A stretch of 64,000 bases of DNA from a virus: IMG/VR virus record IMGVR_UViG_3300023178_000009, positions 99,707 to 163,706 of that record. One strand, written 5' to 3'. Of the stretch, positions 38,975-43,207 are shown piece after piece. The notes below the pieces were generated by a model. That model saw nothing but the letters and a program-made list of their open reading frames with translations. It had not been told where the DNA came from and did not search any database. Position numbers and translations under genes: made by a program. Position 1 is the stretch's first letter. Every line of letters begins with the position of its first letter.

Positions 38975-39099
38975 GCTTGGGAAGCTGGTACTCTGGGGGC
39001 TTCGGCCCCCTTTTTTATGCAGGTACCACAACCGGTACCAATAAGATGATAACGATCTACTTCTGATTCTCTAACTGCATGACATATACACAGATACAT
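38899..39099 (-). CDS. Bfd-like [2Fe-2S] ferredoxin, short phage form (66 aa)
   Basis: N-terminus MYLCICHAVRESEVDRYHLI then GTGCGTCIKK: C4-x-C6...C24-x-x-C27, the cluster pattern of bacterioferritin-associated ferredoxin with a shorter middle. Bfd binds a [2Fe-2S] cluster and helps mobilise iron. ATG 39099 overlaps the TAA of the tape-measure-like gene (TAATG), so it belongs to the minus-strand late operon. Residues after 30 are encoded by the gp32 terminator and antisense gp32 tail (Ser-rich), so only the first half looks selected. Possibly a virion component or a regulator of cell iron. Confidence 0.75.
   Translation of the reverse strand: MYLCICHAVRESEVDRYHLIGTGCGTCIKKGAEAPRVPASQAYSLANLRKKSSDSSSSSNDVLTST
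38995..39016 (+). terminator. Rho-independent terminator after gp32
   Basis: GGGGGC-TTCG-GCCCCC followed by TTTTTT (39011-39016): textbook intrinsic terminator. Reading the other strand, it lies within the coding region of the convergent Bfd-like gene and is followed there by CAGAGT, so it is one-sided. Confidence 0.95.
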
Positions 39100-41786
39100 T
39101 ATGAGTATAGACGACCAGCACCATCGAGGAAATGATCTGCTGTACTGATAGATGATACTGCGGTCCCTATTGCTTTCTTTGCAGTATTACCCGCGGCTTC
39201 ACCAATTGTTTGAGTACCTTGCATTACAGGCATCATGATAGGAATAATTTTTTGAGCTGTTTCTCGTGTCTCACCTTCAAGTTCTGGCATTACTTCATTA
39301 TTAAGTACGGCTTTGATCATACGAGTAGTGTCGCCACCACCACCAGCAAAATCTATGGATTCGCGAATTACACTTTGACTGACACCGGTTTCATCAGAAA
39401 TTTTACGTCTTACAACACCACCTTTAATAATACGATTTAATTCTGCTTTAGCGTCGCCACCACCTAGCAAAACATTAATACCACCCATTACACCTTGGCG
39501 CATTAATGGATCTTCGAAACCAATATTTTGATTAGCAACCTTACGCGCAACTCGGACACTAGATCTTTCATCTTCAGCAATAAAATCTGCTATAGCATCA
39601 TCTTCTAGAAGATCTTGCATCAACATTTGTGCTGCTTTATTAGGTGTCTTCTTCGCTGATGTCACGGGAGTGCTAGCTGGTAGTTCTTCTAACTCAGCCT
39701 GCGTGACTCGGACACTAGATCTTTCATCTTCAGCAATAAAATCTGCTATAGGATCATCTTCTAGAAGATCTCGCATCAACATTTGTGTTGCTTTATTAGG
39801 TGTCTTCTTCGCTGATATTTCTTCTTGTGGTTCGGGCTCAGCGAAGTCTACACTTTTAGTTAGCTCTTTTTCTTGAACAACTTCTTCCTGAACTTCATCA
39901 CTAGTACTAAGAGGTGGCTCAGGTATAACACCAGATCCTATTTTTGGCGTTTCTTCTTTTACGACTAATTCGACCGGCTCGTCTTTATTGGCTTCCACAG
40001 TTTGCAAGTGTTGCTGTACATCTTCTACACTGGCATTTTCAAAGTCTGAAACTTCATCTTCTGTTATATTTAGCATTGAGGCAGCTACCGTACGACTATC
40101 AGGTTTTCTTGCCCATGCAACCCAAGCATCTATTTCCGCTTGGCTTATTTCTTCGTCTTCATTGGTTTCCACAGGAGCAGTAGAAGGTATTTCAGCACCA
40201 CGCAATGGTGCACCTCGTTCTACACTACCAATTTTCCATTCATCACCATATTGATCTACAAAAACACTTTCTTTTGGTGCTGGTGCACTATCTTTTGGTT
40301 CTCTATTTTCAATATATTGAGCAGTTAGCATATCCATAATGCTTGTCATACCGTCTGTACCTAATGCATCAGACAGCGCATATACGATAGGACGATCATA
40401 TTCTGCTTTATATTCATCGTCTAATTTTAGAAAATCATCATATGTTTTTACTTTCTTAAAGAATGATACAATGTCTTCTGGATCTTCGGCTGTATCAAAA
40501 TAACCTTCGCCTAATAGATCTCCAAGTAATTCTGCTCCTTGTTTATTACCATATTTTTCACGCATGGCTGCATCATCAGTGCCATTCGCAACATCAATTT
40601 CTTCACCTCTAAAGTGAGCAGCAATTGCACCTTCGATTGCATCTCCAAGTCCAGTGTGCTCATACAAGACTGTACCGGCAGTATATCCACCAACAAAAGC
40701 ACCGGTTACTGCTGCGACTGGAGCTGCTAGAGCACCGGCTACTGTAGCACCAGCTGCAACCGCACCACTTCCCAATGCACCAGTTGATGCTAAAAGACCT
40801 GCACCTTGAACGGCGGCGGCTCCTAATGCAACATCACCAATAATTCCTGTTTCTTCGTCAGCGCGAACTACAGTATCTAATATAGATTCTTCGCTTTCTT
40901 CTTCACTTAGACCAGTATCATCGAATTCTGGTGGATCATCTATTTCTTCCTCGCCATCATCAGAATCATCAAGTAAAAGTGATCCGACTGCAATACCCAT
41001 AACACCGAGTATTCCCATACCCAACGTTGTAGTTGCAACTGCAGTAAAAGCTTTAGACGCGTCTAATAATGCCGAACCGCCTATACCGTCTTTTCCTTCA
41101 GCTTCTTCTTCATCACGACGTCTTTCATTGTCTCTTTTAGTTTTTTGATTTTCTTTTAATACTAATCCAAGTTTTTTAGCAATCATTGCTAAGTTTTCAT
41201 TGGTAGTATCTAGATCTGCGGTAACGATTGTCAGTTGTTGACGAAGATTATCGATGAGGGCATGAATATTACCAAGTTCTAATATTCTGCTTGAAATGAA
41301 TGTACCTGCTTTGATACGAGGATTTAAATCTTCCTGCAGATCATCTAATTCAATTGAAACGTCTTTTCTAATAATAAGACTTGAAAGATTCGCATCTGAT
41401 CGATTAGCAGTAGATTCCAAACCTTCTAGGCTTGGCATTGCTCTAGCAAAAGCTTCCTCTAATCCTTCGAGTGTAATTACAGGATCATCTTTAGGTATTG
41501 GTTGTCCGGCTGTTTTATTACCCTGTGATGCACCTAATTTACCAGCTTTTGCATCCGCGGCACTACCACCTGCTGACTTGCCACTAAATAATTTGCCCAT
41601 GATTCCGCCGATCGTACCAAATGCACCGGCGCCAACCATTTTTTTGACTTTATTTTTTACGGATTTTTTTGCAGCTTTACCAGCTTTTTTAGCACCTTTA
41701 CCTGCAGCTTTACCCATCCATTTAGCGGCTTTGCCTGTCCAGCTAGCAACTTTTGATCCAACGCTTAAAATTCCTCCGACTGCCAT
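39099..41786 (-). CDS. Tape-measure-like tail protein (895 aa)
   Basis: N-terminus is Gly/Ala/Lys-rich and hydrophobic (SWTGKAAKWMGKAAGKGAKK, GAGAFGTIGGIMGKLF). A coiled-coil region (LGNIHALIDNLRQQLTIVTA) and two long hydrophobic Ala/Gly segments (FTAVATTTLGMGILGVMGIA, GALGSGAVAAGATVAGALAA) are typical of tail tape measure proteins that later enter the membrane. Then acidic, low-complexity, repeat-containing C-terminal part. Position directly after the gp26/gp51 chaperone pair supports the role (T4 equivalent gp29, with no clear similarity seen). A 37-residue unit is duplicated near the C-terminus. Confidence 0.6.
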   Translation of the reverse strand: MAVGGILSVGSKVASWTGKAAKWMGKAAGKGAKKAGKAAKKSVKNKVKKMVGAGAFGTIGGIMGKLFSGKSAGGSAADAKAGKLGASQGNKTAGQPIPKDDPVITLEGLEEAFARAMPSLEGLESTANRSDANLSSLIIRKDVSIELDDLQEDLNPRIKAGTFISSRILELGNIHALIDNLRQQLTIVTADLDTTNENLAMIAKKLGLVLKENQKTKRDNERRRDEEEAEGKDGIGGSALLDASKAFTAVATTTLGMGILGVMGIAVGSLLLDDSDDGEEEIDDPPEFDDTGLSEEESEESILDTVVRADEETGIIGDVALGAAAVQGAGLLASTGALGSGAVAAGATVAGALAAPVAAVTGAFVGGYTAGTVLYEHTGLGDAIEGAIAAHFRGEEIDVANGTDDAAMREKYGNKQGAELLGDLLGEGYFDTAEDPEDIVSFFKKVKTYDDFLKLDDEYKAEYDRPIVYALSDALGTDGMTSIMDMLTAQYIENREPKDSAPAPKESVFVDQYGDEWKIGSVERGAPLRGAEIPSTAPVETNEDEEISQAEIDAWVAWARKPDSRTVAASMLNITEDEVSDFENASVEDVQQHLQTVEANKDEPVELVVKEETPKIGSGVIPEPPLSTSDEVQEEVVQEKELTKSVDFAEPEPQEEISAKKTPNKATQMLMRDLLEDDPIADFIAEDERSSVRVTQAELEELPASTPVTSAKKTPNKAAQMLMQDLLEDDAIADFIAEDERSSVRVARKVANQNIGFEDPLMRQGVMGGINVLLGGGDAKAELNRIIKGGVVRRKISDETGVSQSVIRESIDFAGGGGDTTRMIKAVLNNEVMPELEGETRETAQKIIPIMMPVMQGTQTIGEAAGNTAKKAIGTAVSSISTADHFLDGAGRLYS
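39550..39816 (-). repeat. Tandem 111-nt repeat in the tape-measure-like gene
   Basis: Units 39550-39660 and 39706-39816 are 111 nt each, 156 nt (52 codons) apart, differing at only a few bases. They encode KKTPNKA-x-QMLM-x-DLLEDD and x-IADFIAEDERSSVRV. The high nucleotide identity indicates a recent in-frame duplication or homogenisation. Confidence 0.9.
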
Positions 41787-41983
41787 TATAGATCCGCCAC
41801 GCTAGTTTGATTTTTTTCTTTTTGTTTTTTTACTTTTGCCACAAGCATTTCTAAATACAACTCCCTTTCGAAAGGTATCATACTCTCTACTTCTGTCAAG
41901 GAAAACTTGTGGTACTGAGTTATATCAAAGCTTAGCTTATAATATGTGTAGAGGTCTATGTAACTCAGCCCAGCGTAAAAAAA
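41786..41983 (-). CDS. 51: gp51-like baseplate hub/tail assembly ORF, expressed by -1 frameshift (65 codons)
   Basis: Open in the -1 frame relative to gp26 from its last codons to a TAA that overlaps the next ATG (TAATG). Translation: FFYAGLSYIDLYTYYKLSFD, ITQYHKFSLTEVESMIPFER, then ELYLEMLVAKVKKQKEK; the S-M-I-P-F-E-R-E-L-Y core matches gp51 proteins of marine T4-like phages as I recall them. There is no ATG, GTG or TTG before that core; the first ATG in frame is at 41881. Expected product: a 296-residue gp26-gp51 fusion made by slippage at 41977-41983. CTG at 41968 as an unusual start is the alternative. Confidence 0.75.
   Translation of the reverse strand, partial: FFYAGLSYIDLYTYYKLSFDITQYHKFSLTEVESMIPFERELYLEMLVAKVKKQKEKNQTSVADL
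41915..41983 (-). promoter_or_regulatory. Programmed -1 ribosomal frameshift signal (slippery T-TTT-TTT plus stem)
   Basis: On the minus strand, the gp26 codons GAT TTT TTT form the heptamer T-TTT-TTT (41983-41977). After 8 nt (ACGCTGGG) comes CTGAGTTA (41968-41961), exactly complementary to TAACTCAG (41922-41915), giving an 8 bp stem with a 38 nt loop. The loop itself contains AAGC-TAA-GCTT. Distance and order fit bacterial -1 frameshift sites. The 0-frame stop TGA is at 41967-41965, inside the stem. Confidence 0.75.
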
Positions 41984-42675
41984 TCAGTGATACTCCTAAA
42001 CACAACTCTTTTCTCTTTTCCTTGACTATTTTCGTACGTAACAACATGTTCAATTTTAGGTGAAGTCTCAAAAAAAGCACTTATCTTTTGATATGATTCG
42101 ACGGGCAATGTATCAAGAAACATTGCTTTTTCATCATCTGGATAATTGTGCCATTCATAAATTTCATCATTATCAAATACTAAATCGATGCAGTGTAAAA
42201 TAGTTTCATACAAAATATCAGTAAAGTTTTTTAAATCTTTTAGTTTTTCAGATAGTGATGGTGTAGGTGATTTTAAAGTTACACCGATTGTATCAGTAAT
42301 CATGATTTTATTTGTATGACCTTCAGGAAAAATAACCTCAACATCATCCAAGTTTGTTTCTAAATCATACACGATACCGTCATCACTATCTTCTACAGAA
42401 AATTTTACGATATTACTTACCGAATACGCCCGAAGTTTAATAAACAAATATTCTAAATCATATACAGGAATATTTTCAACATTAAACTCTTCACTAAGTA
42501 CACAGTTTTGTACTACTTGTTTTACTGCTGCATAGATATCCTTATCTTCCTTTGACTCTTTTGAGATAAGTAGAATCTTTTCTTCTTTAACCAAAAAAGG
42601 TCTGATAAGTATTTCTTTTTGTGTCGACGGTTGTACGATTGCAAAAGTCGGCGACTGTATTAATGGTAAACCCAT
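41965..42675 (-). CDS. 26: Baseplate hub/tail assembly protein gp26 (236 aa)
   Basis: N-terminal MGLPLIQSPTFAIVQPST and KEILIRPFLVKEEKILLISK are the gp26 (T4_baseplate family) signature; FTDILYETILHCIDLVFD and a WHNYPDDEKAMFLDTLP helix follow, and the end is SITDFFTLG. T4 gp26 is 208 aa, described as a hub assembly protein. Its last codons carry a slippery sequence leading into the gp51 frame, which resembles tail assembly chaperones. Encoded 13 nt after the tube-like gene. Confidence 0.88.
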   Translation of the reverse strand: MGLPLIQSPTFAIVQPSTQKEILIRPFLVKEEKILLISKESKEDKDIYAAVKQVVQNCVLSEEFNVENIPVYDLEYLFIKLRAYSVSNIVKFSVEDSDDGIVYDLETNLDDVEVIFPEGHTNKIMITDTIGVTLKSPTPSLSEKLKDLKNFTDILYETILHCIDLVFDNDEIYEWHNYPDDEKAMFLDTLPVESYQKISAFFETSPKIEHVVTYENSQGKEKRVVFRSITDFFTLG

Positions 42676-42688
42676 AATCTAACTCCAA

Positions 42689-43207
42689 TTAACTAATTTC
42701 AAATCTCGTAAATCTATAACTAACATTCAGTTTAGCAATATCATCTGTTTGACCCCAATTTAATGCTATAGGTTCAACAACTGTAGGAAATGCTTCAATG
42801 AATTTAATCGTTTTTGCTAAATCACCCTTTCTATTATATACGAACACATTCATATCAATAGCATATTTAGCTAAATATTTTGCACCAAATTTTTGAGCTC
42901 CATCTAAATCAACAATTTCATTTGCCCATGCTCTATAGATTGCATATAAATCTGCTTTCTCATCCAAGAAATGATTCATCGAAACTTCTTGTGGCATATA
43001 CTTATATGGAATATTATAGATTTTACCATTGCCATATGGAGAAAAATTATCTACCGACATAAATGCAACACCTGGCAGATTTACGCCTTCTGTTCTCAAT
43101 TGCAATTCTTCTGTGCCACCGATTGGCGGTGCAATATTTACAGTAAAGGAATGTGAAGGCAAGGTGTCTTGCAATCTAGATTTCCATTGACTGAGATTAA
43201 TGGCCAT
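42689..43207 (-). CDS. Tail-tube-like (gp19/gp54 family) protein (172 aa)
   Basis: Beta-rich fold with motifs SFTVNIAPPIGGTEELQLRT-EGVNLPG, YNIPYKYMPQEVSMNHFLDE, YAIYRAWANEIVD and LNVSYRFTRFEIS, the pattern of the T4 gp19 tube superfamily that also includes gp48 and gp54. Size equals a tube protein (gp19 163 aa); its place before gp26 and a tape-measure-like gene suggests either a tube-initiator (gp54-like) or an extra tube protein. Overlaps the upstream gene by one base. Confidence 0.65.
   Translation of the reverse strand: MAINLSQWKSRLQDTLPSHSFTVNIAPPIGGTEELQLRTEGVNLPGVAFMSVDNFSPYGNGKIYNIPYKYMPQEVSMNHFLDEKADLYAIYRAWANEIVDLDGAQKFGAKYLAKYAIDMNVFVYNRKGDLAKTIKFIEAFPTVVEPIALNWGQTDDIAKLNVSYRFTRFEIS

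Follow-up and report, generated by a model that had tools for sequence, protein, structure and literature searches.

A 2022 study of T4-like phages is said to have found frameshifting conserved in several of their groups, with T4 itself reportedly using genes 26 and 51. That study (Vladimirov, Gautam and Davidson 2022, Virology 566:9-15), as cited in the PRFect paper (PMC10885494) and the Adele paper (PMC12846349), describes gp26/gp51 as the tail assembly chaperones (TAC) of T4-like phages, which are frameshifted in some groups. According to the same citing papers, poly-T runs serve as slippery sites in the TAC-N genes of T4-like phages, and some of these phages carry a short and a longer TAC gene in place of frameshifting. 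The mechanism was therefore already proposed for T4-like phages in 2022, and the phage analysed here adds a well-supported further case. A preceding sequence-only reading of this DNA had predicted the frameshift and stated that no description was known for T4 gp26/gp51, a statement that does not hold in view of the 2022 study as these two papers cite it. The Shine-Dalgarno-like element, the covarying stem and the internal codon control reported below are additions made here, for which we do not claim priority.

The locus shares with the T4-like TAC-N/TAC-NC genes (Vladimirov et al. 2022) the families PF12322, phrog_150 and phrog_634, the -1 joining and a poly-T slippery site, but the phage is divergent, uses T_TTT_TTT rather than the commoner T_TTT_TTC, and has a long-loop covarying stem and a Shine-Dalgarno-like element. 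In T4, the products of genes 26 and 51 equal the short and long forms; there they come from two paralogous genes without a frameshift, whereas here a single gene is frameshifted. The lambda G/GT system likewise makes a short form and a rare -1 long form, the slip lying close to where the short gene ends, as outlined in PMC5009743. Compared with lambda, our protein is larger and the heptamer is different. In lambda the gene next after G/GT is the tape measure, whereas the gene 3' of gp51 in our phage is a tape measure candidate by position. Escherichia coli dnaX resembles the locus in having a Shine-Dalgarno-like element upstream, a slippery heptamer and a stem-loop downstream, and its Shine-Dalgarno spacing resembles the AGGAG-to-heptamer arrangement described below, but the gene, its function and the heptamer differ. 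The dnaX stem-loop and 5' Shine-Dalgarno stimulator are both mentioned in PMC5009743. Finally, the TAC frameshift of Vandenendeviridae and Andersonviridae, as presented in PMC12846349, is also a conserved -1 slip on a T-rich site at the end of TAC-N; the motif there is GTTTTT and the phage families are other ones.

In the window (the whole stretch of 64,000 nucleotides that was analysed), the short and long forms are both encoded through a -1 frame overlap within one gene, and the features of the locus are as follows.

42689..43207, minus strand: tail tube-like protein directly upstream of gp26, 172 aa (phrog_45, E 2.7e-18)
42675..41965, minus strand: gp26-like ORF, short form (TAC-N), 236 aa (PF12322, phrog_150, AlphaFold2 model with pLDDT 91)
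41993..41997, minus strand: Shine-Dalgarno-like AGGAG, probable 5' stimulator (sequence, anti-Shine-Dalgarno pairing, set-wide excess)
41977..41983, minus strand: slippery heptamer T_TTT_TTT in the gp26 frame (sequence; in-frame heptamer in 132 of 132 dereplicated sequences)
41961..41968, minus strand: 5' arm of the downstream stem, CTGAGTTA (fold, covariation in 37 relatives)
41965..41967, minus strand: gp26 stop TGA, inside the 5' arm of the stem (sequence and ORFs)
41915..41922, minus strand: 3' arm of the downstream stem, TAACTCAG (fold, covariation in 37 relatives)
41786..41977, minus strand: gp51-like C-terminal extension (TAC-C) in the -1 frame, with 63 residues and a stop following the slip (phrog_634; -1 frame in every assessable frameshift-type relative)
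39099..41786, minus strand: gene 3' of gp51, 895 aa, candidate tape measure by position (its ATG overlaps the gp51 stop)

The gp26 frame ends ATC ACT GAT TTT TTT ACG CTG GGC TGA, with 12 nt from the end of the heptamer to the end of the TGA. Read with a -1 slip, the sequence becomes TTT TTT TAC GCT GGG... (DFF-YAGLSY...), the continuation in the -1 frame being YAGLSYIDLYTYYKLSFDITQYHKFSLTEVESM..., and this frame stays open until TAA 41788-41786, which shares TAATG with the ATG of the next ORF; the -1 fusion of gp26 and gp51 comprises 296 aa. An 8-nt spacer (41976-41969) separates the heptamer from the stem, whose 8-bp arms, CTGAGTTA and TAACTCAG, are perfectly complementary and enclose a nested AAGC/GCTT hairpin. 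The -1 frame lacks ATG, GTG and TTG throughout its first 13 codons. The sequence-only reading had given the heptamer, spacer, stem, nested hairpin, -1 frame and TAATG correctly base for base; the 296-residue fusion that it predicted is confirmed from the sequence, and its analogy to lambda G-GT is supported.

Since T6Y runs are common in the window (74 found against 82 expected by chance) and the element's own fold stands out only to a moderate degree (z -1.8 to -2.6), the claim needed testing by comparison with relatives. Among the first-round relatives, 79 of 80 have gp51 in the -1 frame after T_TTT_TTY beside the gp26 stop, and among those of the second round 79 of 80 have the heptamer followed by a long open -1 frame. 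The first-round exception, contig L072, has a gp26 frame broken by an early stop and lacks the site, possibly through an assembly error or degradation of the gene; in the second-round exception, L161, T_TTT_TTC is present and the contig ends just past the heptamer. When the two rounds were pooled and dereplicated at 90%, all 132 sequences showed an in-frame heptamer beside the stop codon of gp26 and carried gp51 in the -1 frame, in a set for which a site was required for entry and from which only L072 and L161 were dropped for want of one. T_TTT_TTC accounts for 94 of these, T_TTT_TTT for 37 and T_TTT_TTA for one. Measured against codon usage, T_TTT_TTY was observed in 61 of 61 sequences where 29.6 were expected, and at a conserved FF(E) lying 31-32 codons upstream, taken as the internal control, a heptamer occurs in just 1 of 49 sequences, the codons being mostly TTC TTT. 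The same -1 arrangement is found in Kyanoviridae isolates (cyanophages), KVP40, VH7D, Aeromonas phages AS-zj and phiWae14, ACP17, IC12 and phiN3. KVP40 (L086, 2300-2340) combines T_TTT_TTC with a TAATG overlap, so that frameshifting and reinitiation could coexist there. In SD25 (Ackermannviridae; L096, 3250-3275) the heptamer is absent, GTT TTT CGC TAATG stands in its place, and the downstream ORF has no PHROG match. The gp26 of the window also holds a second in-frame T_TTT_TTT at 42070-42076 (minus strand; GCT TTT TTT GAG), where a -1 slip hits TGA immediately; because the matching FF(E) site forms a heptamer in so few relatives, this one is probably due to chance.

Over the 66 nt directly 3' of the slip, the mean fold z was -2.34 for 61 sequences and -2.63 for the window, against values between -0.75 and +0.46 at eight other positions in gp26 and beyond in the same comparison. 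A 50-nt fold window gave z +1.2 for our sequence, compared with -2.6 for 66 nt, because 50 nt cut the stem. Within the 37 sequences of the window's clade the stem extends to 9 bp, with 90.1% of cells paired as against at most 33% after sliding the partners. Five of the nine pairs have changed on both sides, with 14 double changes, and covariation reaches 0.268 compared with 0.179±0.016 in shuffles, a level attained by 0 of 500 shuffles, although shuffle counts and P values overstate significance here, as the sequences are related. RNAalifold returned no consensus structure for the window-clade alignment, so that the covariation result rests on the named stem taken from the window. Both arms also encode residues of the -1 frame, and their freedom to vary is limited accordingly. 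The comparison of related phages that the sequence-only reading had proposed as a check thus came out in its favour, with the heptamer in 132 of 132 and compensatory stem changes in the window's clade, and the programmed -1 mechanism that it put forward agrees with the conservation of frame, heptamer, spacer and stem.

Hairpins differ by lineage. Many cyanophage-like contigs have one of 9 bp (92% paired), and another contig group has a hairpin of up to 18 bp (90% paired, at most 52% after sliding), for which a search for covariation within the group found zero double changes. Contigs L006, L011 and L013-L016 show a near-perfect 17-18 bp hairpin straight after the slip (about 2208-2273; z -7.5 in L006), far stronger than the hairpins of other lineages. 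At the level of sequence, it is conservation across relatives, namely the heptamer in 132 of 132 against 1 of 49 for the control together with the covarying stem, that makes the signal certain.

The signal extends upstream as well. The AGGAG at 41997-41993 (minus strand) lies 9 nt 5' of the heptamer and has an anti-Shine-Dalgarno pairing energy of -6.8 kcal/mol, which was reached by 0 of 200 synonymous recodings of the gene. Over the relatives, the strongest anti-Shine-Dalgarno pairing in the stretch 6-13 nt upstream comes to -6.17 kcal/mol, compared with -4.59 in synonymous recodings; by class, the values are -6.33 against -4.68 kcal/mol recoded for T_TTT_TTC, and -3.11 against -1.71 kcal/mol recoded for T_TTT_TTT. 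In many members of the window's clade the motif is weak (mean -3.1 kcal/mol). Where codon -5 is Glu, GAG outnumbers GAA by 51 to 16 (51/67), whereas elsewhere the counts are 820 and 2135 (28% GAG), an excess with a P value of 7e-16 if the relatedness of the sequences is ignored. AGGAG is likely a second stimulator of the frameshift, acting from the 5' side. The earlier description of the signal was right about the slippery site and the stem, but had overlooked this element.

The two parts of the fusion belong to known families. The gp26 ORF matches PF12322 (E 3.7e-50) and phrog_150 (E 2.1e-53), the extension matches phrog_634 (E 1.9e-18), and the fusion aligns with positions 6-278 of the 282 of phrog_150; the PF12322 gene is present as a single copy across the 163.7-kb record. 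T4 gp51 (249 aa) aligns with almost all of phrog_150 and with phrog_634 as well, T4 gp26 (208 aa) with the short part only; the former is therefore the counterpart of the shifted product, the latter of the unshifted one. The label 'gp51' given earlier to the -1 frame is therefore apt in that the extension is gp51-like, but the extension is only the C-terminal part, T4 gp51 being homologous to the whole fusion. Genes 26 and 51 are divergent and on opposite strands in T4, as they are in phiAS4 and KARL-1, and in RB43 (L184, 1801-3094) a long gp51-like gene is followed in tandem by a short gp26-like gene on one strand, an arrangement consistent with tandem duplication. In a 26-sequence tree, a single branch (support 94/85) has all the frameshift-type proteins to one side of it, and another (99/98) all those of the gp51-type, while two changes are required for the gp26-type owing to the placement of the long RB43 branch; the tree has several long branches and does not fix the number and order of duplications.

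AlphaFold2 modelled gp26 alone with confidence (pLDDT 91), and the BFVD matches of the model are members of the gp26 family from T4-like, Campylobacter and Bacillus SP-15 phages. Against the PDB nothing was significant among the best 50 matches listed, of which the HK97 tail assembly chaperone 2ob9 had the highest probability (0.28) and was third by E-value (E 0.47-2.8, non-significant). PMC3004832 lists T4 gp26 and gp51 among the hub assembly chaperones, with gp51 required for assembly and absent from the particle. The gp26 products of our phage would probably serve as chaperones. The 895-aa protein encoded next contains basic stretches and alanine/glycine-rich stretches, and fits a tape measure protein by its position. 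A search of 50,697 phage records found no homologues of it, the only ones being in two near-identical contigs (L186 and L187), and the T4 tape measure family was not found in this genome in a search without a positive control.

The best explanation of these data, to which we give a probability of about 0.93, is that a programmed -1 frameshift in gp26 yields a short and a long tail assembly chaperone, in the manner of lambda G/GT. It rests on sequence comparison: the elements, the frame, their conservation and covariation, and the homology to T4 gp26 and gp51. Public annotations, on the other hand, give gp51 its own gene, as if a separate small protein were made by internal initiation or by termination-reinitiation near the gp26 stop, and TAATG at that stop in KVP40 and SD25, an ATG shortly past it in P-SSM2, and an ATG within the first 13 codons of the -1 frame in 35 of 132 sequences would all suit such a protein. 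However, 55 of the 132, our phage included, have no ATG, GTG or TTG in those codons, and the annotated starts vary among relatives and often cut into the conserved part, there being no conserved start codon. A separate gp51 would also leave the constrained heptamer, the stem and the single-frame T4 gp51 unexplained, and we consider it very improbable.

Slippage could instead occur during transcription of the T run, giving a mixed mRNA pool from which both frames would be read by ordinary translation. The seven-T run in the window would allow this, and slippage on long runs of about 9 A or T is known in bacteria according to PMC5009743, but 94 of the 132 dereplicated relatives have only six T before a C, X_XXY_YYZ is the phase in every case, and the conserved Shine-Dalgarno-like motif and the covarying stem point to ribosomes, which makes transcriptional slippage less probable still. 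Nor does the classic suspicion raised by a frame break at a homopolymer, namely that a sequencing or assembly error has split a single-frame gene, survive comparison: the break falls at the same codon in every assessable relative, independently sequenced isolates among them, which refutes such an error and leaves it a negligible probability.

Under a programmed frameshift, the majority of ribosomes would end at TGA 41967-41965 and yield the 236-aa short form. A minority would pause at T_TTT_TTT (41983-41977), detained by the hairpin in front and probably also by base pairing, to the rear, between AGGAG (41997-41993) and 16S rRNA; these would then move back by one base and read the -1 frame, giving the 296-aa long form with the gp51-like extension. 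We infer from the sequences that this slippage occurs, as well as its efficiency. If the analogy to lambda G/GT holds, the two forms may together cover the tape measure protein and bring in subunits of the tail tube.

For the T4-like phages more widely, we tentatively suggest, at somewhat below even odds, that the chaperone frameshift uses a three-part, dnaX-like signal (Shine-Dalgarno-like element, T_TTT_TTY and hairpin) whose parts have been re-weighted between lineages: phages with T_TTT_TTC would combine a strong Shine-Dalgarno-like element with short hairpins, and those with T_TTT_TTT a weak one with a long-loop covarying stem, all perhaps adjusting one and the same short-to-long ratio, for which the T4 group would rely on duplicated genes.

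The comparison corrects the annotation of 17 frameshift-type isolate records, in which gp51 is missing or separate with varying starts and is joined to gp26 in none. The gp51 frame goes unannotated in the public records of L083, L084, L090, L100, L098 and L097 and is started at various internal codons in other records, never being joined to gp26. The same pair of products is reached in two ways, by a frameshift or by duplicated genes, and the locus offers well-supported stimulatory elements with which to examine how the ratio between the two chaperones is tuned in phages.
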